Positions 12,297 to 25,102 of a stretch of 64,000 bases of DNA are shown here, piece by piece. Position 1 is the stretch's first letter. Every line of letters begins with the position of its first letter. The stretch lies in contig NZ_QKYK01000024.1 in the NCBI RefSeq assembly GCF_003426815.1, forward strand, positions 1-64,000. Reading direction: 5' to 3'. This stretch comes from Desertimonas flava (GTDB taxonomy: Bacteria > Actinomycetota > Acidimicrobiia > Acidimicrobiales > Ilumatobacteraceae). The position numbers and the translations under genes were made by a program. Below the pieces are notes generated by a model that saw nothing but the letters and a program-made list of their open reading frames with translations, ran no database searches and was not told the origin of the DNA.

Positions 12297-13130
12297 TCAG
12301 CGGACGGGCTCGGGCACGTACGGCGTGACGATGTCGAGCTGGCCGGCCGGGATCTTCACCGCTCCGGTCGTCCACGCCCAAATCGAGACCACCTTGCGGT
12401 CGGTGTCGACGTAGGCCTCACGGCCGTGGAGCATGCGGTAGTTGTCGATGCAGAGCAGCTGTCCGGCCTCGAGCCGGAAGCGGGGACCGGTCGAGCGGGC
12501 TTCGGCGACGGCGAGGCCCCACCGCTCGACGAACGGGTAGTGGTCGGTCTCGTCGGGACCGAGCCGCGGCAACTGGTACGGGTGGGAGCGCACCTGGGCC
12601 CGGCCGCCGGAGGAGAAGCGGGCGATCGGCGCCGGCTCGCCCTGAGGGAAGTTGGGCTCCGAGTGGTCGATCGGCTCGTCCCAGAGGAAGTCGGCCAGCT
12701 GTGTGTCCTCGGCCGAGAGAATCGTCGCCAGCTTGAGGGCGTCGACGAGGAACGAGGCGCCGCCGATCGAGCACGGCTTGTCGCACCACAGGAACATGTG
12801 GTCCGGCGCGAAGTCACCGAACCCGTAGCCGTCGTTGTGCGCCGGCTGTGTCTTGTCGTAGCTGCCGAGGTGACGCTTGCGCCCGCGGGCGTCGACCGGC
12901 TGCTCGGCCACCACGGCGGCCGACTCGTCGCCCGCCGCCTTGGTGGCCTCGAACTGCGGCGCGATGCGCAGCACGCGGCCGGCGAGCATCGCCGAACCGA
13001 ACGCCACGGCGTCCTCGACGGTCGTGATGCCCGACACCACGGCGGCGCCGTCGAGGGCGACGAGGCCGCGGGCCTGGGCGGGTGTGGTCGCTCGGGACGG
13101 GATCAGGTTGGCGGCGCGTACGTCGATCAT
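12297..13130 (-). CDS. TauD/TfdA-family Fe(II)/2-oxoglutarate oxygenase
   Basis: A 277-residue oxygenase. The metal-binding triad is visible as His98-x-Asp100 (HNDGYGFGD) and His235 in MLHGREAY, followed by Arg residues that could hold 2-oxoglutarate. Such enzymes hydroxylate taurine, aryloxyacids, carnitine-like or peptide substrates, so the substrate is open. The ATG is preceded by GAGGAA at six bases. It shares strand and architecture with the next gene at 13213-14001, from which it probably arose by duplication. Both face away from the ABC importer that follows. Confidence 0.85.
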   Translation of the reverse strand: MIDVRAANLIPSRATTPAQARGLVALDGAAVVSGITTVEDAVAFGSAMLAGRVLRIAPQFEATKAAGDESAAVVAEQPVDARGRKRHLGSYDKTQPAHNDGYGFGDFAPDHMFLWCDKPCSIGGASFLVDALKLATILSAEDTQLADFLWDEPIDHSEPNFPQGEPAPIARFSSGGRAQVRSHPYQLPRLGPDETDHYPFVERWGLAVAEARSTGPRFRLEAGQLLCIDNYRMLHGREAYVDTDRKVVSIWAWTTGAVKIPAGQLDIVTPYVPEPVR

Positions 13131-13212
13131 CGGGGTTCCTCGCAGTCTGTGGTCGGTGGTGGTGGTGTCGTCGGTCGTCAGGTTCGTCAGATGTTCGTTC
13201 GCCGTCGCCGGG

Positions 13213-14001
13213 TCACTCCGCGGCCAGCGCGGCGTAGCGGCTGTCGGAGTGCAGCGGGCCGTCGGGGACGCGATGGGCGGCGGTGGTCCACACCCAGACC
13301 CGCCACATCAGTCGCTCGATGTCGGCGTAGGCCTCGCGCCCGTGCATCATCCGGTAGTTGTCGATCACGGCCACGTCACCGGGACGCAGCTTGAACCGGC
13401 GCGCCGTCCTCGACGCCCGGGCGATGGCGTCCCACCAGGCTCCGATCATCGCCGCGTCGATCTCGGGATCGTCGCTGTTGAGCGCCGGGCGCTGGTGGAC
13501 GAATCGCCGCATCATCAGCCGTCCCTCCCTCGTCCGCCCGATCACGGGTGAGCACGAGGGCTGCATGCCCGGCTCGGTCTGGTCCACCGGCACCGTCTGG
13601 AGACGGCGCAGCAGCTCGCCACCTGCAGGATGGGCACCGAGGCGGGCGACGACGTCGTCGCCGTCGACGAGGAACGACTCGCCACCGTGCGGGGAGGCGG
13701 TGGCGCAGCTGAGGAGGAAGTAGTCGGGGTAGGCGTCGCCGTAGGCGAACCCGTCGGTGTGGGGCTCGAGCGGCGTGGTGTGGTCGATCATCGGCAGCCG
13801 CCGGTCGCGCTCGCCGCCGGCCCGCACCAGTGACGGATCGGGTGCGCGCAGGACCGCGGCGCCGAAGATCGCGTGCGCGGCGGCGACGGCATCGTCCGCG
13901 GAGGTGCCCCAACCGGCGAGGACGGCCGCGCCGTCGCGTTCGACGATCCGACGAACCTCACCTGGCTCGGTGGTGACCACCGGAACGAGACCACACTCCA
14001 T
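13213..14001 (-). CDS. TauD/TfdA-family Fe(II)/2-oxoglutarate oxygenase (paralogue)
   Basis: A 262-residue relative of the neighbouring oxygenase. The triad is His81-x-Asp83 (HTDGFAYGDAYPDYF) and His220 in MMHGREAY; the shared sequence DNYRM(M/L)HGREAY and the WxWTT block show that the two are paralogues. The ATG at 14001 is used because the frame upstream runs antisense through the ABC ATPase. It is divergent from the importer operon with about 110 bases between, so a shared control region is likely. Substrate unknown; the importer cargo is the obvious candidate. Confidence 0.85.
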   Translation of the reverse strand: MECGLVPVVTTEPGEVRRIVERDGAAVLAGWGTSADDAVAAAHAIFGAAVLRAPDPSLVRAGGERDRRLPMIDHTTPLEPHTDGFAYGDAYPDYFLLSCATASPHGGESFLVDGDDVVARLGAHPAGGELLRRLQTVPVDQTEPGMQPSCSPVIGRTREGRLMMRRFVHQRPALNSDDPEIDAAMIGAWWDAIARASRTARRFKLRPGDVAVIDNYRMMHGREAYADIERLMWRVWVWTTAAHRVPDGPLHSDSRYAALAAE

Positions 14002-14112
14002 GGCCTGACGGTACGGATCGCTGATTACCTGCCGATCAACCAGCCGTGACGATCGCGTTTCCGGCGACCCCGGGTGCGCTCCACCTTTATGCGCTGTCAA
14101 CGGGGACGAAAC

Positions 14113-14937
14113 ATGCCCGACCCACCGCAGGCGTACAACACGACCATGCACGACGCCAGCGGGATCTCCATCCGCGGTCTCTCCAAACAGTTCCGCCTCG
14201 GCCGCGGTGACGTCCGGGCGATCGAGCGTGTCGATCTCTCCGCGCCAGCCGGATCGTTCACCGCCCTGCTCGGCCCCAGCGGCTGCGGCAAGTCGACGGT
14301 GCTGCGGATCCTCGCCGACCTCGAGACGCCGACGACCGGCGAGGTGCTCGTGCACGGCGAACCGCCGGCGGCGGTGCGCACGTCGGGCGCCCTCGGCATC
14401 GCCTTCCAGGACGCCGCCCTGCTGCCGTGGCGCACGGTGCATCAGAACATCGCCCTCGCCGCCCAGGTGACCGGGCGGCCGGTCGACGACGCGGCGATCG
14501 CCGCGCTGATCGAGCTCGTCGGCCTCGGCGGATTCGAGCGGGCCCGACCGGCCCAGCTGTCGGGCGGCATGCGCCAGCGTTGCGCGATCGCCCGGGCCCT
14601 GGTCACCGACCCGACCGTGCTGCTCCTCGACGAGCCGTTCGGCGCGCTCGACGAGATGACCCGCCGCCACATGAACATCGAGCTGCAGCGCATCTGGTCG
14701 GAGCGCTCGGTGACGACGCTCCTGGTGACGCACTCCATCGACGAGGCCGTGCTGCTCGCCGACCAGGTCGTCGTGATGACTCCTCGACCGGCACGCATCG
14801 CGGCGGTGGTCGACATCCCGTTCGCCCGTCCCCGGCTCCCCGAACTGACCCGGACGCCAGAGTTCCACGCCGTCGTCGACGAGATCTCGGGCCTGCTCTT
14901 CGACCGCTTCGCCCCGACCGCCCTGGCGGCCGGGTGA
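14113..14937 (+). CDS. ABC transporter ATP-binding protein, nitrate/sulfonate/taurine type
   Basis: Energises an importer of the SsuB/TauB/NrtD class. Visible motifs are Walker [12 protein letters not shown], the Q-loop ([11 protein letters not shown], typical of this class), the signature [15 protein letters not shown] and Walker [21 protein letters not shown] took the ATG at 14113; ATGs at 14074, 14089 and 14146 are also in frame and none has a convincing Shine-Dalgarno. Its TGA overlaps the GTG start of the first permease. Together with two different permeases and a Tat-type binding protein it forms a complete importer. Confidence 0.9.
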
Positions 14938-15740
14938 CGGACACGATGCTCACGACGATCGACCGGCCGCGGCTCCCCTCCCCCCGGGGAGCCGCGGCCG
15001 CCGCAACGTGGATCCAGCGCGCCATCGGCATCGCCGCGTACCTCGCGCTCTGGGAGATCGCCGGCCGCCGGCAGTGGCTCGGCCGCACCTTCCCACCCGT
15101 CTCGGACATCGTCGACAAGGTCATCGATCCGGCCCAGCGCGACGTCGTGCTGCGCGCACTCCGGACCACGGCCACGTCGAGCGGTCTCGGCTTCGTGATC
15201 GGCGTGACCGCCGCCGTCGTCGGCGCGGTGGCCGCCCTGGTCGTACCGGTCCTGCGGCCCGGCATCAACCAGCTGGCCACGATCCTCCACGCGATGCCCG
15301 TGATCGCTCTCGCCCCGCTGTTCATCGTCACGCTCGGACGGGAGCGCACACCCGTGGCGATCGCCGCCCTCGCCGCCGGCTTCGCCATGTTCGTCGCCGC
15401 CACTGCGGCCGTCGAGACGGCGCGGCCCATCCATCACGACGTCTTCACCGCGCTCGGCTCGAGCCGGCGCCGGCGACTCGTCAGCCTGCAACTGCCGGCA
15501 GCCCTCCCCGGCCTCGCCGACGGCCTCCGCCTCGCCGCGCCGGCCGCCGTTCTCGGTGCCGTCCTCGGCGAGTGGTTCGGCGCCCCGCGGGGCATCGGCG
15601 TGCTGATCGTGAGCGCCATGCAGAACTACCAGATCGCCTTGCTGTGGGCCGCGGCCGTGCTCGCCGCCGTGCTGTCGATGCTGACGTTCGGCGCGTTCAC
15701 CGCGCTGGCCCGCTGGACCACCGAACGATGGGGAGTGTGA
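14934..15740 (+). CDS. ABC transporter permease, SsuC/TauC-like (first)
   Basis: A 268-residue inner-membrane protein with about six helices. The EAA-type cytoplasmic loop that contacts the ATPase is seen as [20 protein letters not shown], and [13 protein letters not shown] matches the conserved end of this permease class. The GTG start overlaps the ATPase stop (GTGA); an in-frame ATG at 14946 is an alternative. Importers of this class usually use one permease as a homodimer, but here a second, distinct permease follows immediately, suggesting a heterodimer. Confidence 0.88.
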
Positions 15741-15742
15741 AC

Positions 15743-16597
15743 ATGGCCATCGCCGATCTCGATGCGCTGCAGCGCGCTGACGACACCCTGGCCAGCACAT
15801 CGCGGGTCGACAACAGCCGGGCGATCCCGTCGGCCGTCGTCCGACGCACCGTCACGGCGGTGGGGCGATTCGTGAGCCGGTGGTGGGCCGTCGCCCTGGT
15901 CGTCGTCGTGTGGCAGCTGTGGGTGTCGCTGACCGGCTTCAACAGCATCGTGCTCCCCCGGCCCACCGACGTGGTCGCCGACCTCGTCGGCCACCCCGGT
16001 GCCTACGCCGGCGACACGGCCCGCACGATCGGCCTCGCCCTCGTCGGCATCGCCATCGGGATGGCGATGGGGTTCGCCGTCGCCGTCGCCACGTGGGCGT
16101 CGTCCATCGTCGCCGGTGCCATCAGCCCGCTCGTGCTGATGCTGCGCTCGATCCCCATCGTCGCCGTCATCCCTGTCGTCGCCCGCGTCGTCGGCTACGG
16201 CAACAAGGTCGTGCCGATCGTGACGATCATGCTGGCCTTCTTCCCCGCCTACGTCATGACCACGTCGGGGTTGCGCTCCGCCTCGTCCACGTCGATCGAC
16301 CTGCTGCGGGCGCTCGGCTCGTCGCGCTGGACGCTCCTGCGACGGGTGCTCGTGCCGTCGGCGATCCCCAACCTGCTCGTGGCGCTCCGGCTCTGTGCGT
16401 CCAGCGCTGTACTCGCCGCGATGGTCGCCGAGTTCCTCGCGGGGACCAACGGCCTCGGCCGGCTCTTCTCGAACAGTCGCGTCCGGTTCGACAACGAGCG
16501 GGCGTGGGGTGCCGCCCTCATCGCCACCGCGCTGTCGGTCGTCTTCTTCCAGTTGGCCCTGCGCGTCGAGCGCTGGGGCCGGGCCCGGTTCCGCTGA
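15743..16597 (+). CDS. ABC transporter permease, SsuC/TauC-like (second)
   Basis: A 284-residue permease with about six transmembrane segments after a 45-residue cytoplasmic N-terminus. The ATPase-contact loop is SIDLLRALGSSRWTLLRRV, and EFLAGTNGLGRLF matches the class-specific C-terminal block. The ATG was chosen because GGGGAG lies seven bases upstream; a GTG at 15737 overlaps the previous stop. It probably pairs with the first permease. Four copies of a 13-base repeat follow its stop. Confidence 0.88.
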   Translation: MAIADLDALQRADDTLASTSRVDNSRAIPSAVVRRTVTAVGRFVSRWWAVALVVVVWQLWVSLTGFNSIVLPRPTDVVADLVGHPGAYAGDTARTIGLALVGIAIGMAMGFAVAVATWASSIVAGAISPLVLMLRSIPIVAVIPVVARVVGYGNKVVPIVTIMLAFFPAYVMTTSGLRSASSTSIDLLRALGSSRWTLLRRVLVPSAIPNLLVALRLCASSAVLAAMVAEFLAGTNGLGRLFSNSRVRFDNERAWGAALIATALSVVFFQLALRVERWGRARFR

Positions 16598-16609
16598 CCC
16601 GATCCCCCT

Positions 16610-16661
16610 CACGCAATCCCGCCACGCAATCCCACCACGCAATCTCGCCACGCAATCCCAC
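16610..16661 (+). repeat. Tandem repeat, four copies of a 13-base unit
   Basis: CACGCAATCCCGC, CACGCAATCCCAC, CACGCAATCTCGC and CACGCAATCCCAC follow one another without gaps in the 82-base space between permease and binding-protein genes, 18 bases before the latter's start. A fifth partial copy (CACGATGAC) follows. The unit length is not that of a CRISPR. It may set mRNA spacing or arise by slippage. Confidence 0.85.
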
Positions 16662-16679
16662 CACGATGACTGGAGCACC

Positions 16680-17783
16680 ATGACCCCACGCCCGGCTCTA
16701 CCCATTGCATCGACGATGCTGACGCGACGCCGCATTCTCGCGGCCGGGGCGTCCGGCCTGGCGGCCCTCGCCGTCGGCGGGCGATCCGCGGGTGCCCGTT
16801 CCCTGGCGACGGCACGCCGGCTGCCGATGTCGTCCTCGCCGGTGACGCTGGACATCGCCATGGGCTGGATCAAGAACGTGGAGTACGCCGGGTCGTGGCT
16901 GGCGATCGAGAACGGCTTCTACGAGGCCGAGGGCCTGGAGGCGAACTACCTACAGGGTGGCCCCAACGCGCCGGCGCCGCCCGTTGCCATCGCCGCCGGC
17001 GACGGGGTGATCGGCGTGATGCCGAGCATGACGACGCTGCTCGACGCCATCAACGAGGGCAACGACTTCGTCGTGTTCGGCACCCAGTACCAGTCGTCTC
17101 CCGGCGCCGTGCTCTCGCTCGCCGACAAGCCGGTCACCAAGCCCGAGGACCTCGTCGGCATCACGTTCCTCGGTCAGGAGGGCGTCAACGTGTTGATCGA
17201 CGCCGTGCTCGACATCGCCGGCCTCCCGAAGGACTACGACTTCGTCGTCGCCGGCTTCACCCCCGATCCGCTGATCGAGGGCCAGGGCGACGCCTACTCG
17301 TGCTTCGCGGTCAACCAGCCGATCACCCTGGAACAGCAGGGAATGGTGGAAGGCGAGGACTTCGTGGTCACCACGTGGGCCGACCTCGGCCTGCCGAGCT
17401 ACTCCAACCTCTTCTTCGCCGAACGGTCGTGGCTGGCCGACAATCGCGACACCGTCGTCGGCTTCATCCGGGCGACCATCAAGGGCTGGGAACAGAACGA
17501 GGTCGACCCGGCGGTGGCCGCAGCCCTCGCCGTGGAGAAGTACGGCGCCGACCTCGGGCTCGATCTCGCCCAGCAGACGCGCCAGAACGAACTGCAGATC
17601 CCGCTCATGAAGAGCGACCTCACCGACGCGTCGGGGTTGTTCCGCATCGACCCGGAGCTGTGGGACGGGGCGATGACCGCGGCCTACCTCGCCGCCGACC
17701 GCGAGTCGGCGCCGGCGGCCGCCGACGTGCTCGACCTCACCATCCTCGACGACGTCTTCGGCGACGCCACCACGCTGCTGTGA
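16680..17783 (+). CDS. ABC transporter substrate-binding protein, NMT1/THI5-like, Tat-exported
   Basis: A 367-residue binding protein. A twin-arginine signal (MLTRRRILAAGASGLAALAV) begins at residue 13, so export is probably folded, through Tat; the first 12 residues may be dispensable if the ATG at 16716 is the real start. The mature part begins VTLDIAMGWIKNVEYAGSWL and has AIENGFYEAEGLEA, as in NMT1/THI5-like and sulfonate/nitrate/pyrimidine-precursor binding proteins. GGAG lies upstream of the chosen start. No lipobox Cys is seen. The cargo cannot be named; the neighbouring oxygenases suggest a small anionic or amine compound that is oxidised after uptake. Confidence 0.87.
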   Translation: MTPRPALPIASTMLTRRRILAAGASGLAALAVGGRSAGARSLATARRLPMSSSPVTLDIAMGWIKNVEYAGSWLAIENGFYEAEGLEANYLQGGPNAPAPPVAIAAGDGVIGVMPSMTTLLDAINEGNDFVVFGTQYQSSPGAVLSLADKPVTKPEDLVGITFLGQEGVNVLIDAVLDIAGLPKDYDFVVAGFTPDPLIEGQGDAYSCFAVNQPITLEQQGMVEGEDFVVTTWADLGLPSYSNLFFAERSWLADNRDTVVGFIRATIKGWEQNEVDPAVAAALAVEKYGADLGLDLAQQTRQNELQIPLMKSDLTDASGLFRIDPELWDGAMTAAYLAADRESAPAAADVLDLTILDDVFGDATTLL

Positions 17784-18556
17784 GCGCCGGGATGTCCTCC
17801 ACCACCTCCGACACGCTCGTCGAGGCGTTCCAGCGCGACGGCTACGTCGTCGTGTCCGGCCTGTTCAGCGACAGGGAGCTGGACGCCCTCGACACCGCCA
17901 TGGCCGCCCTCCAACGGGGCGTGGCCACGGGAGCGATCGACCGGGCCCGGTACGCCGGGGACTACCTCACGTCGGCGGCGCCCGGCGAGACGCTGCCGTT
18001 CGTCAACTACGTCAAGGACGTCACGACGCTGTCGGCCGAGGCCGATGCTGCGTTCACCCACCCGGTGCTCGTCGAGCTGATCCGGCGGGGTCTCGACGTT
18101 GACGACGTGTGGCGCTTCGGCGAGGAGCACGGCTCCCGGTTCGGCGTCGTGTACCAGGACTCGAGACCGGGTCAGGAGTCGGGGTACAGCAGGATCGGCT
18201 GGCACTCGGACCACCAGGCCTTCCCCAACTCCGACTTCTTCCCGTCCGTGGCGCTGACGCTCCACCTCGATGCCACGTCGCCCGCCAACGGCTTCCTGCG
18301 CGTCGTGCCCGGCAGCCATCTGTGGCCGACCGACGGGATGCCGCTCGGGTTCGAGAAGATCGCCGGCGAGGTGGCGGTGTACTGCGATCGCGGCGACGTG
18401 ATCCTCCACCACTGCGATCTCTGGCACTCGGCGGCGAGGGCGACCGAGGACCCGCCCGGTGGGATCCGCCGTCACCTCCGCGGCAGCTGGAACGCCGGCC
18501 GTCGCCCCGAGCCGGGCGAGGAGATCGAGGCGTTCAACAAGAACGCCGCTCGCTGA
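17780..18556 (+). CDS. Phytanoyl-CoA dioxygenase (PhyH)-family oxygenase
   Basis: A 258-residue Fe(II)/2-oxoglutarate enzyme of the PhyH family, the third such oxygenase at this locus but of a different subfamily from the two TauD-like ones. Triad residues are His142-x-Asp144 in GWHSDHQAFPNSDFF and His216 in LWHSAA, with downstream Arg residues that could bind 2-oxoglutarate. The GTG start makes a GTGA overlap with the binding-protein stop, so it is the last gene of the importer operon; an ATG at 17792 is also possible. Operon membership suggests it acts on the imported compound. Confidence 0.88.
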   Translation: MSAGMSSTTSDTLVEAFQRDGYVVVSGLFSDRELDALDTAMAALQRGVATGAIDRARYAGDYLTSAAPGETLPFVNYVKDVTTLSAEADAAFTHPVLVELIRRGLDVDDVWRFGEEHGSRFGVVYQDSRPGQESGYSRIGWHSDHQAFPNSDFFPSVALTLHLDATSPANGFLRVVPGSHLWPTDGMPLGFEKIAGEVAVYCDRGDVILHHCDLWHSAARATEDPPGGIRRHLRGSWNAGRRPEPGEEIEAFNKNAAR

Positions 18557-18598: not shown

Positions 18599-20008
18599 CT
18601 ATCGGCGCCGGGTTCCGGGTCCGAAGACGGGCGGTGGTGGCGTGGTGTAGGTCCGCCCGGTGGGGGTGGTGATCGTTAACGTGGGCGAGTTCGGATGGCC
18701 AGATGTGGAGCGTTTGGTGACGGTCCAGCCGGGGAGCTCCTTGATCTGGTTGTAGGAAGCGCACGCGAGTTGGCCGTTGGCGACGGCGGAGTCGCCGCTG
18801 CGCCGGTAGGGGTCGACGTGATCGAGCTCGAGGCCGTGGTCGGTGTCGCACACCGGCATACGGCACACGTTGGCGTCTCGGGCACGGATCCAGCGGGCGG
18901 CATGGGGATGGAACCGTCGGCGGTGCTGATCGACGGCACACACGGTGTCGTCGGCGGGGTCGGTGAGCAGTCGCCGCACCCAGACCTCCACTCCCGACCC
19001 CACCCCTGTGCTCGCGTCGGGTTGGTTGGTGATCGTGTCGAGGAACTCGCGGGCCCAGGCGGCGGGGATGGGGCCGTAGCCGGTGATGACGCCGGGTTCG
19101 GTGCCGGTGCCGAGGAGCGATTCGGCGGGGATGGTGATGTCGAATTCGATGTGCACACCGGGACGGTCGCGTCGTCCGGACAGCAGATCGACGAACATGT
19201 CGGCGCGCAATTGGTCGAGCGCCCGCTCGTCACCGTTGCTGCGCGCCTCGCGTGCAGCCCGGTCCAAGGTGCCGTAGGCGGCGACGCCGTCACGCATCGG
19301 CACCAGGCCGGTGATGCGAACCATGCCGTCGGCGACGGGCCGGATGGTGACACTGCGTTGTTCGGCGGCGCGAGCGTGGCGCTCGAGAAATCCGGCCTCG
19401 TCGAGCTCGATCGCCAGACGGCGGGCTGCGGATTCGGCTTTGCCGACACCCAACCCGACCAATTGGTGGGCGAGATCGGTGTCGACCCGGCGGGCCAACT
19501 CGTCGCACATGTGCTGACACTCGCGCACGACGACTGTGGCGACTCGTTCGGACACGTCCCCAGAGCGCAGCAGCCCCCCGAGGATCGGGGACCGGGCATC
19601 GAGTTGCCGGGCCAACCGCATGTCGGCCGCGGCGTGCTGCGGCGAGACCCGTCGAGCGAGGCCCAGTTCGTCGGAGACGCCGCGCCCGACCCACCGGGCA
19701 GGCACTCCCTGGTCGCGATGCTCGATGATCGTCGCGTCGGCGAACGCGACCGACACCTCGGCCCGCAACCCGGCCGCAGCGTTGACGATCCGTTCCAGCA
19801 GTGTCACCTGCTCAACCTGACCATCGGTGGTCGACGCTGGACCCATCGCGACGATCACACTCAGCATGTCGGACAACCGATCGACGAGTGCCTGATCGCC
19901 AGCCGGCAACGACGACCGCGATGTACGAGGCGGTGGTGGGTCTGGTGTCGGTGCTGGGGCCGTCGCGTACGCGGCGCCAGGGGGTGGGGAATCAGTCGAG
20001 TGCCACAT
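18599..20008 (-). CDS. DUF222 domain HNH endonuclease-like protein
   Basis: A 469-residue member of the DUF222/HNH family. The N-terminal two thirds are the alpha-helical DUF222 domain (for example RRVSPQHAAADMRLARQLDA). The C-terminal HNH module has CRMPVCDTDHGLELDHVDPY, with the His of the HNH motif, then ACASYNQIKELPGW. Relatives have a second Cys or His pair here (C-x-x-C/H); in this protein the last ligand is replaced by Tyr419, so the zinc knuckle may be impaired. The gene is flanked by a 600-base gene-poor stretch with a decayed glyA fragment, consistent with an unstable site. Confidence 0.85.
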   Translation of the reverse strand: MWHSTDSPPPGAAYATAPAPTPDPPPPRTSRSSLPAGDQALVDRLSDMLSVIVAMGPASTTDGQVEQVTLLERIVNAAAGLRAEVSVAFADATIIEHRDQGVPARWVGRGVSDELGLARRVSPQHAAADMRLARQLDARSPILGGLLRSGDVSERVATVVVRECQHMCDELARRVDTDLAHQLVGLGVGKAESAARRLAIELDEAGFLERHARAAEQRSVTIRPVADGMVRITGLVPMRDGVAAYGTLDRAAREARSNGDERALDQLRADMFVDLLSGRRDRPGVHIEFDITIPAESLLGTGTEPGVITGYGPIPAAWAREFLDTITNQPDASTGVGSGVEVWVRRLLTDPADDTVCAVDQHRRRFHPHAARWIRARDANVCRMPVCDTDHGLELDHVDPYRRSGDSAVANGQLACASYNQIKELPGWTVTKRSTSGHPNSPTLTITTPTGRTYTTPPPPVFGPGTRRR

Positions 20009-20609: not shown

Positions 20610-21470
20610 TCACGGCCCGTCGACGCCGCTCTCGACGAGGGCGAGCAAGGCCGGCGACACCGACGCGTCCGGGCCGATGGCGGCGGCGACGGCGAGGCGG
20701 ATCGCCTCCATCGTGGCGAACTGGACGACGGTGGAGATCGGCTGGCGGGGATGGGCCTCGCCGGTCGCCACCCCACCGAAGATCACGTTGTGGTCGGCAT
20801 GCTCGGCGGCGAGCGACCGCGAGAACGTGCTGACCAGGATGACGGTCGCCCCGCGCTCCCTGGCCACCCGGGCGACGAGGCGGGCGTGGCGATGGCTGCC
20901 CGTGAAGCAGACGACGATGCAGACGTCGCCCGGCGCGAGCGTGCTGGCGACGACGATCTGACGTTGGAAGTCGGTCGGGGACTCGACGGCGAGGGAGAGC
21001 CCGGCGAGACCGAGGGCGAGCGCCTCGCCGGCGGGGACCGACCACCCGTACGACACCACGGCGACCCGGCGGGCCGACGAGATCGCCACACCGACCGCCG
21101 CCACGACGGACTCGTCGATCGTCGACGCGGCGTGGACGAGCGCACTCGCAGCAGCGCGGAGGAAGGCCCCGGCCGAACCGTCGGCTTCGTCACCGTCGTC
21201 GGCGTCACCTGCTCCGGCCGCCTGGGCGTCGACCGCCAGCCGCATCACACACTCGCGGAAACCGGAGAACCCGAGTTGTTGGCACGTGCGCACCACGGTG
21301 GCGGGGGACGTGTCGGAGCGCTCGGCGATCTCACCGGCCGATGCCCGCGCCAACTCCTGGCTGGTCATGGCGAGCAGCACCTCGGCGACACGCCGCTGGC
21401 CGGGATGCAGCGAGGGCGCCGCGGCACGAACCTGGTCCCACGCCTGACCGAGCGTTGCTGACGCGTTCAT
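20610..21470 (-). CDS. MurR/RpiR-family transcriptional regulator
   Basis: A 286-residue regulator. The N-terminal helix-turn-helix (about residues 20-75) includes [20 protein letters not shown] and [23 protein letters not shown], the standard RpiR recognition region. The C-terminal SIS domain (about 120-270) starts [17 protein letters not shown] and would bind a phosphosugar or related phosphoester. It is divergent from an Ugp-like uptake operon and very likely controls it through the inverted repeat at 21546-21562. The ligand is unknown. Confidence 0.9.
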
Positions 21471-21545
21471 GGCGTCGCTCCGCGGACTTCAGCCTCGCTT
21501 CGACCCGATGTCACCACCCGTTCACCGTCCCCTGCTTCGATGTCT

Positions 21546-21562
21546 GTGAAACACAATTTCAC
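21546..21562. promoter_or_regulatory. Probable RpiR operator
   Basis: GTGAAA-CACAA-TTTCAC is a perfect inverted repeat with 6-bp arms. TGAAA(N5)TTTCA is the common form of RpiR-family sites. It lies 75 bases from the rpiR-like start and 75 from the binding-protein start, so one dimer could control both directions. A half-site-like GTTTCACG occurs at about 21589. Confidence 0.65.
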
Positions 21563-21637
21563 CGTAGCACCGCTCGACGGATCAGCGTTTCACGCCATCT
21601 CGGCCCCGGTCCCCCACTTCACGGAGCACTCCCCACC

Positions 21638-23032
21638 ATGTCACACCCTCCCGTCCCGCGCCGCCGACCCGACCGTCGGCACGTCAGCGCCGGCGCCGTG
21701 CTCGCCGGCGCGCTGGCCGCGCTCGCCACGACCGCGCCAACGGCTGACGCAGCCAGCGACGATCTCGCCATCGACCTCCCGGCAATCCCCGCCGGCACCG
21801 AGGTCGACATCTCGTTCGAGTCGTACAACTTTGCCATGGCCGGCGCCGGCGCCGACACGATGAACCAGCTCGTCGACGAGTTCGAGGCTGCGCACCCGAA
21901 CATCCACGTCGAACGGCGCACGCCGACCGACATGGCCAACTTCACGGCGAGCGTGCAACAAGAGATCGTCGCGGGCGACCCGCCGTCGCTCGCCCAGATG
22001 CTCTTCCAGACCGACCTCATCGTCAACCAGCTCGGCGCGCCGAGCTGGGACTCACTCCTCGGAGCAGAGGGCGTCGACGCCTACTTCGACGGGCGTCTCA
22101 CCGGCGACCACCCGGTTCACGACCGGGCCGCGGTGCTCGGGGACTACGGCGGCGAGACCTACCTGTTCCCCTTCGTCTTCTCCACGCCGACGCTGTTTCT
22201 CAACCGCACGCTGTTCGAAGCGGCCGGGCTCGACCCCGATGCCCCGCCGGCGACGTGGGACGAAGTCCGCGCCGCCGCCTCGGCGGTCACCGAACAGACC
22301 GAGGCCGACGGCATCTACGTGCAGTGCACAGGCGAGCCGACCACCGACTGGTGCTACCAGGGCATCGTCAAGTCGAACGGGGCGACGCCGATCAGCGCCG
22401 ACCTGTCGACGCTGGCGTTCGACAGCCCCGAGGCGATCGAGGCCACCGAGATGCTCGCCGGACTGGTGTCCGACGAACTGTTCCCCGACGTGGCCGGAGC
22501 GGACGCGACCGAAGCGTTCATCAACGGCGACCTCGCCATGATCCTCACCTCGTCAGTGCTGACGGGCTCGTTCCTCCCCGCGGCAGCGGCCAACGGGTGG
22601 CAGCTCGACGCCACCGGACTCCCGGCGTTCGGCGACCGGCCCGTCGTGCCGACCAACAGCGGTTCCGGTTTGGCGACGTTCGCCACCGACCCGCTCGAGC
22701 AGCGCGCCGCGTTCGAACTCGTCACGTTCCTCACGTCCGACCACGCGTACTCGATCATCACGTCGCAGATCGGGTACCTCCCGCTGCGCACCGGGATCGT
22801 CGACGAGCCCGACCTGCTCGGCCCCTGGCTCGAAGAGCACCCGTTCCTTCAGGACAACCTCGACCAACTCGATCACCTCGAACCCTGGCTGTTCCCGCCG
22901 GGAACGGAGGGGCCCCAGATCACCACGATCTGGCTCGACGCCATCAGCCAGGTCGTGTTCGACGGCGCCGACGCCGCCGCCACCCTCGCCGACGCCCAAG
23001 CCCGCGCCACCGACCTCATGCCCGGAAACTGA
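21638..23032 (+). CDS. ABC transporter extracellular solute-binding protein, family 1 (UgpB-like)
   Basis: A 464-residue binding protein. A signal peptide with basic start (RRRPDRRH) and hydrophobic core (VLAGALAALATTAPTADA) ends near residue 36; no lipobox Cys is seen. The mature protein has the family-1 features: NQLVDEFEAAHPNIHVE near the start, FPFVFSTPTLFLNRTLFEAA with the hinge region, and AFINGDLAMILTSS in the middle. This group includes glycerol-3-phosphate (UgpB) and sugar-binding proteins. It is first of an operon with a UgpC-like ATPase and UgpA/UgpE-like permeases interleaved with two phosphatase genes, so a phosphorylated cargo is plausible. Confidence 0.88.
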   Translation: MSHPPVPRRRPDRRHVSAGAVLAGALAALATTAPTADAASDDLAIDLPAIPAGTEVDISFESYNFAMAGAGADTMNQLVDEFEAAHPNIHVERRTPTDMANFTASVQQEIVAGDPPSLAQMLFQTDLIVNQLGAPSWDSLLGAEGVDAYFDGRLTGDHPVHDRAAVLGDYGGETYLFPFVFSTPTLFLNRTLFEAAGLDPDAPPATWDEVRAAASAVTEQTEADGIYVQCTGEPTTDWCYQGIVKSNGATPISADLSTLAFDSPEAIEATEMLAGLVSDELFPDVAGADATEAFINGDLAMILTSSVLTGSFLPAAAANGWQLDATGLPAFGDRPVVPTNSGSGLATFATDPLEQRAAFELVTFLTSDHAYSIITSQIGYLPLRTGIVDEPDLLGPWLEEHPFLQDNLDQLDHLEPWLFPPGTEGPQITTIWLDAISQVVFDGADAAATLADAQARATDLMPGN

Positions 23033-23046
23033 GAGGACCTCTCCCC

Positions 23047-23958
23047 ATGGCCAACCGCACCCACCGCATCGTCCAGATCACCGACACCCACATCGTCGAC
23101 GAGGGCGAAATGCTCTACGGCTCGGTCGACACCGCAGCCAACCTGCAGCACGCCCTCGAGACGGTCGCCGACAATGCCGAGGGTCTCGATGCCCTCGTGC
23201 TCACCGGCGACCTCGCCAACGACGGCTCCCCCGACGCCTACCGGCGGCTCCGAGCCATCGTCGACCCCGCTGCCGAACGGCTCGGCGTGCCCGTGTTCTA
23301 CGGCATCGGCAACCACGACCACCGCGACGCTTTCCGGAGCGGACTCCTCGACGGTGCCGCAGCGCCGGCGGGCACGCTGCCTGCGGGCACCGAGAGCGAC
23401 GGGCAGCGAGGCGAGCTCGCCCCCGTCGACTACGTCGTCGACCTCGACGGGCTGCGCATCGTGATGGTCGACTCGACCGTGCCCGGGTCCCATCGCGGCG
23501 AGTTGACGCTCGAGCAGCTCGGCTGGCTGGCGACGACGCTCGCCGAGCCGGCGCCCGCCGGCACGCTGCTGACGATCCACCACCCGCCGTTCAACACCGC
23601 CAAGCCGGAGACGGACGCGGTCGTCGATCTGATGGCCAGCGCGATGTTCGACGACTTCTCCGGGCTCGGCGAGGCCCTGCGCGGCACCGACGTGATGACG
23701 GTGCTCGCCGGGCACTACCACGAGCCGCTGGGCGGCCAGCTCGCCGGCGTGCCGGTGTGGGCCGGGCCGTCGACCGCGATGTCGCACGAGGTCGGCCCCG
23801 ACACGTTCCGCATCGTGCCGAGCAGCGGGTACAGCGTGATCGACGTCTTCGACGACCGCACCGTGGTGGCCAGGGCGATCAACTGCCTGCCCCGGCCGGT
23901 CCTGTTCGAGATGTCGATGGCCGACCTGCGCGAGCACATCGAACAGGCCGCCCACTGA
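23047..23958 (+). CDS. Metallophosphoesterase, CpdA/Icc/GpdQ-like
   Basis: A 303-residue calcineurin-like phosphoesterase. All metal motifs are present in order: QITDTHIVD (DxH), LTGDLAND (GD), YGIGNHDHRDAF (GNHD), LTIHHPPFN and LAGHYHEPLGG (GHxH). Class III members cleave cyclic nucleotides or glycerophosphodiesters. A GAGAGG ribosome site precedes the ATG, 14 bases after the binding-protein stop. No signal peptide is seen, so it should act in the cytoplasm on the imported compound. Its place inside an Ugp-like operon favours a phosphodiester substrate over cAMP; that is inference. Confidence 0.88.
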   Translation: MANRTHRIVQITDTHIVDEGEMLYGSVDTAANLQHALETVADNAEGLDALVLTGDLANDGSPDAYRRLRAIVDPAAERLGVPVFYGIGNHDHRDAFRSGLLDGAAAPAGTLPAGTESDGQRGELAPVDYVVDLDGLRIVMVDSTVPGSHRGELTLEQLGWLATTLAEPAPAGTLLTIHHPPFNTAKPETDAVVDLMASAMFDDFSGLGEALRGTDVMTVLAGHYHEPLGGQLAGVPVWAGPSTAMSHEVGPDTFRIVPSSGYSVIDVFDDRTVVARAINCLPRPVLFEMSMADLREHIEQAAH

Positions 23959-23959
23959 G

Positions 23960-25098
<1,139 letters not shown>

Positions 25099-25102
<4 letters not shown>

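Follow-up and report, generated by a model that had tools for sequence, protein, structure and literature searches.

Systems of the TauABCD and SsuABC kind combine an ABC importer with a TauD-family oxygenase. Import and 2-oxoglutarate (2OG) oxygenase chemistry also meet in a riboswitch-controlled methylguanidine operon, whose 2OG oxygenase makes N-(hydroxymethyl)guanidine (PMC12508155). Free bases are substrates of other 2OG oxygenases, such as fungal XanA (PMC5746545) and thymine dioxygenase (5c3p), and AlkB acts on nucleic acids (PMC13296781). The latter paper states that a demethylation route of modified bases had not been established in E. coli, and proposes a deaminase route that covers N6-methyl purines and leaves out their N6,N6-dimethyl counterparts.

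Here we analysed positions 1 to 64,000 of contig NZ_QKYK01000024.1 of Desertimonas flava (Acidimicrobiia; GCF_003426815.1), a 64,000-nucleotide stretch hereafter called the window. Seven genes occupy positions 12297-18556 (Table 1), where the first-pass annotation had placed them. A tightly spaced plus-strand operon encodes an ATPase, permeases P1 and P2, a binding protein (SBP) and a PhyH-type oxygenase, and the TauD/TfdA-type genes T2 and T1 diverge from it. The most likely start of the ATPase gene is ATG 14113, with GGGGA upstream (alternative, ATG 14146), and that of T2 is ATG 14001. The P1 gene, which starts with GTG, shares 4 nt with the end of the ATPase gene, and P2 could alternatively begin at GTG 15737.

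Table 1. Genes and non-coding features of the locus in the window
Feature	Positions	Strand	Match or remark
T1, TauD/TfdA-type Fe(II)/2OG oxygenase, 277 aa	12297..13130	-	PF02668, 67.4 bits
T2, second TauD/TfdA-type oxygenase, 262 aa	13213..14001	-	PF02668, 99.5 bits
Divergent intergenic region, T2/importer operon	14002..14112		starts compared; no Rfam family match
ABC ATPase	14113..14937	+	PF00005, 111.5 bits (run on 14146-14937)
Permease P1	14934..15740	+	PF00528, 68.4 bits
Permease P2	15743..16597	+	PF00528, 81.4 bits
Short tandem array, 13-bp unit x 4.3	16602..16665		gap before SBP gene
SBP, NMT1/THI5 type, 367 aa	16680..17783	+	PF09084, 98.8 bits (gathering score 20.5)
PhyH-type Fe(II)/2OG oxygenase, 258 aa	17780..18556	+	PF05721, 84.8 bits

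All Pfam matches lay above gathering scores, which bears out the claim of a complete importer with ATPase, two permeases and an NMT1/THI5-type SBP. The two permeases (about 30% identical, cross-matches 29-31%) had been regarded as an oddity; they are normal for such importers, two permease matches being present in 22 of the 23 mapped homologous loci (L035-L057). The divergent pair T1 and T2 was rightly called paralogous (34% identity), and both belong to PF02668 by profile match and HxD...H triad. It had also been claimed that all three oxygenases keep HxD and the distal His, and these residues indeed showed no variation across 10 aligned TauD and 7 aligned PhyH sequences, those of the window included: H98/D100 and H235 in T1, which also has the invariant R245, and H142/D144 and H216 in PhyH, a member of PF05721. 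The reported overlap of the PhyH and SBP genes depends on the start, because GTG 17780 and ATG 17792 are both possible: it stands with the former (4 nt) and gives way to an 8-nt gap after the SBP stop with the latter.

The SBP N terminus contains TRRRIL, read off the sequence, which we take to be a twin-arginine (Tat) signal motif. Its predicted structure (pLDDT 87.9) best matched 4nmy (Z 30.4 over 289 residues, rmsd 3.2) and 3ix1 (Z 29.7), and profile and matching fold make it a member of PF09084. In the same ranking SsuA reached Z 21.7 and TauA, at Foldseek rank 24, Z 17.9, neither being closest. The SBP resembles thiamin/pyrimidine binders (ThiY, the thiamin-bound SBP, Thi5) more than TauA or SsuA, a kinship judged by structure ranking, not by a tree, so that families outside the ranking may be nearer. 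Together with the purine-catabolic wider neighbourhood described below, this leaves the earlier comparison with sulfonate and taurine systems unsupported. The likeness to TauABCD/SsuABC lies in the pairing of an ABC importer with a TauD-family oxygenase; the window differs in an SBP nearer another group, in three oxygenases from two families, and in TauD proteins nearer TmpA and GBBH.

Catabolism of a quaternary amine, an aminophosphonate or a sulfonate (TmpA/GBBH/TauD-like) would agree with T2, which by profile is nearest TmpA and gamma-butyrobetaine dioxygenase. The nearest folds of its predicted structure (pLDDT 88.6) are TmpA and gamma-butyrobetaine hydroxylase (TM 0.65) and not base hydroxylases, which counts against a purine substrate. 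We nevertheless regard such catabolism as improbable, given that T2 fell far below the equivalog cut-offs of TmpA (56.3 vs 400 bits), gamma-butyrobetaine dioxygenase (48.6 vs 414.75) and trimethyllysine dioxygenase (41.1 vs 268.3), that the SBP scored lower with SsuA and TauA than with its top match, and that the deaminase and purine genes of relatives misfit. T1 scored lower than T2 with the same three profiles, below their cut-offs, and PhyH stayed below that of ectoine hydroxylase (26.4 vs 336.5 bits).

The window importer and ThiXYZ/NMT1-THI5 importers (ThiY 3ix1, thiamin-bound 4nmy) appear to share SBP family, fold and N-heteroaromatic ligand class. Since no solved binder is closer than 3ix1 and 4nmy, salvage of a thiamin precursor or a pyrimidine was considered as well; it seems very unlikely, as no TPP riboswitch was found in the window and 10 related loci, no thi genes were recognised in the loci inspected, and the His of the ThiY motif DWxPNxxHT (3ix1, 4nmy) is replaced in the SBP by Tyr69, with Glu68 beside it (HMMER alignments; profile consensus f). 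The Tyr69 column holds Phe in nearly all of 13 aligned rows, and Glu68 is invariant in these rows and variable in a wider set of 27. The oxygenase genes attached to the window importer are a further difference from ThiXYZ.

The gene set is conserved in other genomes and is not a private assembly. In L108 it lies on one contig and one strand in the order ATP-P1-P2-SBP-T2-T1-PhyH, and two genomes carry it over two contigs each, G833 (L179 and L068; SBP 69% identical; ATPase beyond the reach of the L179 contig) and G832 (L184 and L067; SBP 68% identical). In sister operons an adenine-deaminase-like gene, AddB, occupies the place of the second TauD gene. G831 (L066/L183) has ATP-P1-P2-SBP-AddB-T with TetR and PhyH, and a 4-nt overlap between AddB and the end of the SBP gene in L066; G1100 has T1/TetR/ATP-P1-P2-SBP-AddB/PhyH, and G845 an AddB-type cluster with no PhyH within the 12 kb retrieved, the clusters of both G1100 and G845 having been recovered by TauD-profile search without PhyH as query. 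AddB scored above cut-off with PF00962 and TIGR01430, and its nearest solved chain is 3ou8. This version, with one TauD, was found in one Acidimicrobiales MAG and in Pseudonocardiaceae, and the carriers include cultured Pseudonocardia such as strain CNS-004 (L120). The partition between AddB and a second TauD is drawn from nine genomes, uncorrected for kinship, of which five are MAGs and one, that of D. flava, has a completeness figure (96.6%, contamination 3.05%); four of the nine lack AddB, and three of these four are MAGs.

In trees, T1 formed a 100/100 clade with the L108 sequence and five from the Pseudonocardia family, and T2 grouped with L117 (95/90) and with T2 of L108 (92/91); PhyH orthologues are 70-73% identical in L066, L067 and L068. 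Recurrence of the set upholds the proposed coupling of uptake to dedicated Fe(II)/2OG oxygenases. The first-pass annotation had named homologous loci consistently lacking the oxygenases as refuting; because the set recurs, this is not the case for close orthologues, and more distant homologues vary. A near copy of T1, L195 (48%), had no adjoining SBP, permease or PhyH match, which counts against a purine-dedicated system; the same absence was noted for the more distant TauD copies L064, L065, L176, L185 and L196-L199. Searching 200 genomes of the D. flava family with the SBP returned its own match alone at 1e-60, and a plasmid tblastn with T1, T2 and PhyH gave no match at 1e-10.

For the PhyH subfamily, a collection of 84,980 species genomes yielded 300 candidate stretches, of which 129 were confirmed as relatives, and the window protein is the sole match to the subfamily profile in the D. 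flava genome at 1e-20. At 59 of 80 PhyH loci, some on short contigs, no SBP was seen, and in some of those inspected PhyH sits among unrelated genes; both observations count against a purine role. An AlkB-type (ALKBH3-like) gene adjoins PhyH in L073 and L076-L079 and counts in favour, tempered by the 89-94% AlkB identity across these five loci, which represent one MAG lineage. AlkB/ALKBH3 dealkylases are likewise 2OG oxygenases, but they act on nucleic acids and the window enzymes come from other families.

Wider relatives adjoin genes for 8-oxoguanine deaminase, adenine deaminase, xanthine dehydrogenase (XDH), nucleoside hydrolase and VanA_C-type Rieske proteins, and a relative of T2, L063, sits in a purine-gene cluster; this setting suggests a purine-type ligand. 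A nucleobase is further indicated by the conserved set with AddB attached in sister operons, by the pyrimidine/thiamin binders nearest the SBP, and by a paralogous importer of the same genome (L044), whose adjoining oxygenase has thymine dioxygenase as best solved match (2.4e-41), followed by an ethylene/succinate-forming enzyme (9.2e-40). On the other side, neither the locus nor its flanks, which are cob genes (from translations) and a DUF222 gene, contain purine-catabolic genes, and the D. flava genome has no AddB orthologue. It does encode, elsewhere, homologues of 8-oxoguanine deaminase and XDH, the latter sharing 67% identity with the XDH of the L063 cluster.

On balance, we lean towards the locus being a unit that takes up a purine-type nucleobase and breaks it down oxidatively, the base being likely an (amino)purine with an N-alkyl group or some other modification. 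The genes present, the conservation of the set, the folds and the catalytic residues are directly established; we infer the purine-type ligand class with moderate confidence and the N-dealkylation chemistry with weaker confidence. The Tat-exported SBP would capture the base outside the membrane for import by the P1/P2/ATPase complex, and T1, T2 and PhyH would oxidise it inside the cell; plausibly, N-alkyl carbons would be hydroxylated and lost as aldehyde, freeing an ordinary purine, which the 8-oxoguanine-deaminase and XDH homologues could process further. The same purine neighbourhood also speaks for import followed by ring hydroxylation, i.e. XanA-like xanthine oxidation without molybdenum; we consider this unlikely, as the XDH homologue is present and a XanA-like replacement is therefore not obviously needed. 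Like XanA and 5c3p, the window enzymes would act on free bases, and a 5c3p-like enzyme adjoins the sister importer; they differ in being short TauD and PhyH types.

Uptake and oxidative demethylation of an alkylguanidine would have a precedent in MgdH/MgdL, which pairs an ABC importer with N-demethylation by a 2OG oxygenase (PMC12508155). Its probability appears slighter still than that of thiamin-type salvage: no guanidine riboswitch was found in the window and 10 related loci, and relatives have an adenine-deaminase-like partner and a purine neighbourhood. The methylguanidine operon differs from the window locus in its partner genes and in its riboswitch control. In sum, SBP ranking, cut-offs, riboswitch absence and the purine genes of relatives led us to set aside the taurine/sulfonate, thiamin-precursor, quaternary-amine and guanidine readings.

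More tentatively than the purine assignment itself, the locus may represent a bacterial pathway dedicated to N-alkylated purines in free form, in which an importer serves position-specific alkyl-stripping 2OG oxygenases (two TauD, one PhyH) with interchangeable builds, AddB plus one TauD or two TauD without deaminase. If so, modified-base demethylation could be assigned to a named importer together with three non-heme iron enzymes, drawn from two families, in a system spanning Acidimicrobiia and cultured Pseudonocardia and offering a possible new recycling route for modified nucleobases. The PhyH subfamily, so far uncharacterised, also gains a context from the locus. The gene set is apparently undescribed so far, a judgement based solely on a literature search, with most subscription journals outside its scope, in which no paper on it was recognised.

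Among non-coding elements, no riboswitch matched Rfam at gathering score in the window and 10 related loci, leaving no ligand with support from such an element. Two microRNA matches were dismissed, far below their gathering scores, and no palindrome in the divergent gap passed a simple scan. The tandem array ahead of the SBP gene is a candidate element, its tie to the import and oxidation system being conjectural.

The positions that the first-pass annotation had given for all seven genes proved correct when checked against the window sequence, which lies within contig C17 of a 6.2 Mb genome (G000; 96.6% complete, 3.05% contamination). Both minus-strand oxygenases, T1 and T2, belong to TauD (PF02668) and share 34% identity; the plus-strand products were assigned by Pfam to ABC_tran (ATPase), BPD_transp_1 twice (permeases P1 and P2), NMT1 (PF09084, binding protein SBP) and PhyH (PF05721), all seven above their gathering scores. 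T2 likely starts at ATG 14001 and the ATPase at ATG 14113. From the ATPase through P2, and again from SBP into PhyH, neighbouring frames touch or share a few bases; the sole gap, between P2 and SBP, is occupied by a tandem array, which contains all three exact copies of CCACGCAATC in the window (0.22 expected).

The data show a conserved co-occurrence of these genes, along with their folds and catalytic triads. Related loci are listed in the table; several of them carry an adenine-deaminase-like gene, AddB, which in genome G831 overlaps the SBP stop by 4 nt.

Window features and gene orders of related loci (T, TauD-type gene; percentages, identity to the window protein)
Feature or locus	Position or contig	Content	Remark
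13-bp tandem array	window 16602-16665	unit CACGCAATCCCAC x 4.3	operon's only sizeable gap
DUF222 gene	window 18599-20008	opposite strand	directly downstream of PhyH
RpiR/SIS regulator; phosphodiesterase-like gene	window 20610-25102	with an apparent sugar-type ABC importer, which the regulator adjoins	importer and phosphodiesterase-like gene read from translations
L108		ATPase, P1, P2, SBP, T2, T1, PhyH, in this order	one strand
G833, L179	C499	P1, P2, SBP (69%), T, T	contig ends within P1
G833, L068	separate contig	PhyH (73%)	
G832, L184	C468	ATPase, P1, P2, SBP (68%), T	T cut
G832, L067	C385	T, T, PhyH (70%)	first T cut
G831		ATPase, P1, P2, SBP, AddB, T	T cut; TetR and PhyH (71%) beyond the ATPase's other side
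Pseudonocardia L126		T1, importer, AddB, PhyH	
Pseudonocardia L120		T1, importer, AddB, PhyH	AddB and P2 frames broken
L138		importer, AddB, PhyH	no T
G1100		T1, TetR, ATPase, P1, P2, SBP, AddB, PhyH	whole cluster
G845		as G1100	no PhyH in the 12 kb fetched; contig begins 0.8 kb before T1
AlkB-PhyH gene pair	L079:9279-10735	AlkB-type gene overlaps PhyH	AlkB-type product ALKBH3-like
Urease alpha gene	L104:13634-15361	between PhyH and NMT1-type importer	Frankia nepalensis

Conservation was surveyed with SBP and with PhyH as queries. SBP matched at 1e-40 in 19 of 296 genomes of the class, the own one included, five of which (G272, G361, G397, G448, G454) offered short loci only. Of the 18 regions fetched around such matches, 15 came from 13 other genomes. 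A PhyH homologue (42-55%) was found in six of these 15 (L040, L041, L048, L049, L050, L052) but was missing from the three paralogous regions of the own genome, and T1 or T2 matched in none of the 18. The PhyH alignment was scanned over 84,980 species genomes, and 80 of 129 confirmed relatives were kept. At 1e-12 these loci contained SBP (21), P1 (20), P2 (21), AddB (11), T2 (5), T1 (3) and an ATPase (24, a few of which, at 30-37%, are other ATPases). Since no SBP was in reach at 59 of the 80, several being short contigs, and PhyH stood amid unrelated genes at some loci read (e.g. Williamsia L090), the PhyH subfamily is wider than the importer system. Four contigs of the PhyH set, L072, L074, L092 and L123, match contigs of the SBP survey in length (22,010, 54,177, 18,322 and 47,721), so the two surveys overlap.

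As a control of the bait, TauD queries were used in place of PhyH. Among 292 class genomes, T2 matched at 1e-12 in three others: in G299 (46%) inside a purine cluster that has an ATPase of 66% identity and lacks matches to SBP, a permease or PhyH, and in G375 (39%) and G273 (34%) with no purine or importer context. Across 396 phylum genomes, three others matched at 1e-25, namely G273 and G299 again and the distant, context-free G708. In the family of G838, 8 of 297 genomes matched at 1e-50, G838 included, with a query alignment (A3) that includes sequences originally found via PhyH; of the three other near T1 copies, two belong to the cluster (G1100 and G845 in the table), G916 has a lone T1 (48%), and G979, G921, G943 and G843 have distant copies without context.

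In the tree, T1 and T2 fall into distinct subfamilies: seven T1 rows make up a clade supported at 100/100, and T2 groups with L117 (95/90) and with T2 of L108 (92/91, under the starred level). Their closest NCBIfam equivalogs (TmpA, gamma-butyrobetaine dioxygenase and trimethyllysine dioxygenase) all score far below cut-off, PhyH reaches 26.4 of 336.5 bits for ectoine hydroxylase, and SBP matches no NCBIfam equivalog at 0.01. The T2 model (pLDDT 88.6) first matches TmpA and GBBH (TM about 0.65 by query length), but these matches of a predicted fold name no substrate. The SBP model (pLDDT 87.9) lies nearest to thiamin-bound 4nmy (Z 30.4, rmsd 3.2 over 289 residues) and formylaminopyrimidine-binding 3ix1 (Z 29.7, rmsd 3.5 over 293), with Thi5 (Z 26.9), SsuA (21.7) and TauA (17.9) following. 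In the profile alignment its Tyr69 occupies the column of the DWxPNxxHT His of 3ix1 and 4nmy; the preceding Glu68 is constant throughout the 13 rows of alignment A7, though not across the 27 rows of A5.

Hints to the ligand come from neighbouring genes. AddB falls in PF00962 and, with 299 bits, exceeds the TIGR01430 cut-off of 216.55. It shares the motif HLEG with its closest solved chain, 3ou8, while 3rys has HIEG, and 6n9m and 6n91 have HLDG; HLEG or HIEG as against HLDG marks base over nucleoside deaminases. We take 3ou8 to be PA0148. A title cited in PMC6281700 presents PA0148 as an adenine-deaminating enzyme. Wider importer relatives adjoin an 8-oxoguanine deaminase (L049, 597 bits against a cut-off of 532), adenine deaminase, xanthine dehydrogenase, nucleoside hydrolase, and Rieske oxygenases whose C terminus is of the vanillate-demethylase type. 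For every kind, one or two examples were tested, and the rest were identified by BLAST or by reading translations. The urease placement in Frankia nepalensis is consistent with nitrogen scavenging.

Five MAG loci from a single lineage (L073, L076, L077, L078, L079) have an AlkB-type gene immediately upstream of the PhyH homologue, and L105, L126, L138, L193 and L194 have one near the cluster, which makes 10 of 88 loci examined. The AlkB genes of L073 and L076 are 89%, and that of the Microthrix-labelled L078 94%, identical to that of L079, an Actinomycetota MAG; the species name in the record titles of L073 and L076 (Bifidobacterium breve) looks wrong.

With moderate confidence, we infer that the importer would take up a purine-type ligand. 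More tentatively, the oxygenases may perform oxidative N-dealkylation, which fits both AlkB chemistry and the importer-oxygenase logic of methylguanidine use described in PMC12508155. Against this mechanism count the finding of nothing purine-specific within the window itself and the action of the solved relatives nearest T2 on quaternary amines. Each of the importer, oxygenase and deaminase families is already known; the literature searched yielded neither their combination nor its likely role.

In nine genomes, like the others compared mostly drafts or MAGs, TauD is part of an importer locus, intact or split. The four having two TauD genes (G000, G832, G833, G834) lack AddB at 50% identity or more, their sole match at 1e-40 being one of 38% in G834, whereas all five with one (G831, G836, G838, G845, G1100) have AddB beside the importer. 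Outside this count stand G835, G841, G299 and G916 (TauD otherwise arranged, AddB of at least 50% somewhere in each), G839 and G840 (AddB, no near TauD) and G837 (neither). On one reading, a single exocyclic nitrogen is the target of both the second TauD and the deaminase; on another, the pattern reflects two related ligands.

The own genome encodes homologues of 8-oxoguanine deaminase (64%) and xanthine dehydrogenase (67%), and at least three further NMT1-type importers (L044 on C67, L045 on C73, L046 on C35), with eight SBP matches in all. By reading, two DIOX_N-type 2-oxoglutarate oxygenases adjoin the importer of L044 and one that of L045, which also has Rieske genes, and an amidohydrolase adjoins that of L046. 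For the one DIOX_N protein tested with Pfam, the best solved chain was thymine dioxygenase (2.4e-41), closely followed by an ethylene/succinate-forming enzyme (9.2e-40). Molybdenum hydroxylase homologues are many in this genome, a single xanthine dehydrogenase query matching on nine contigs.
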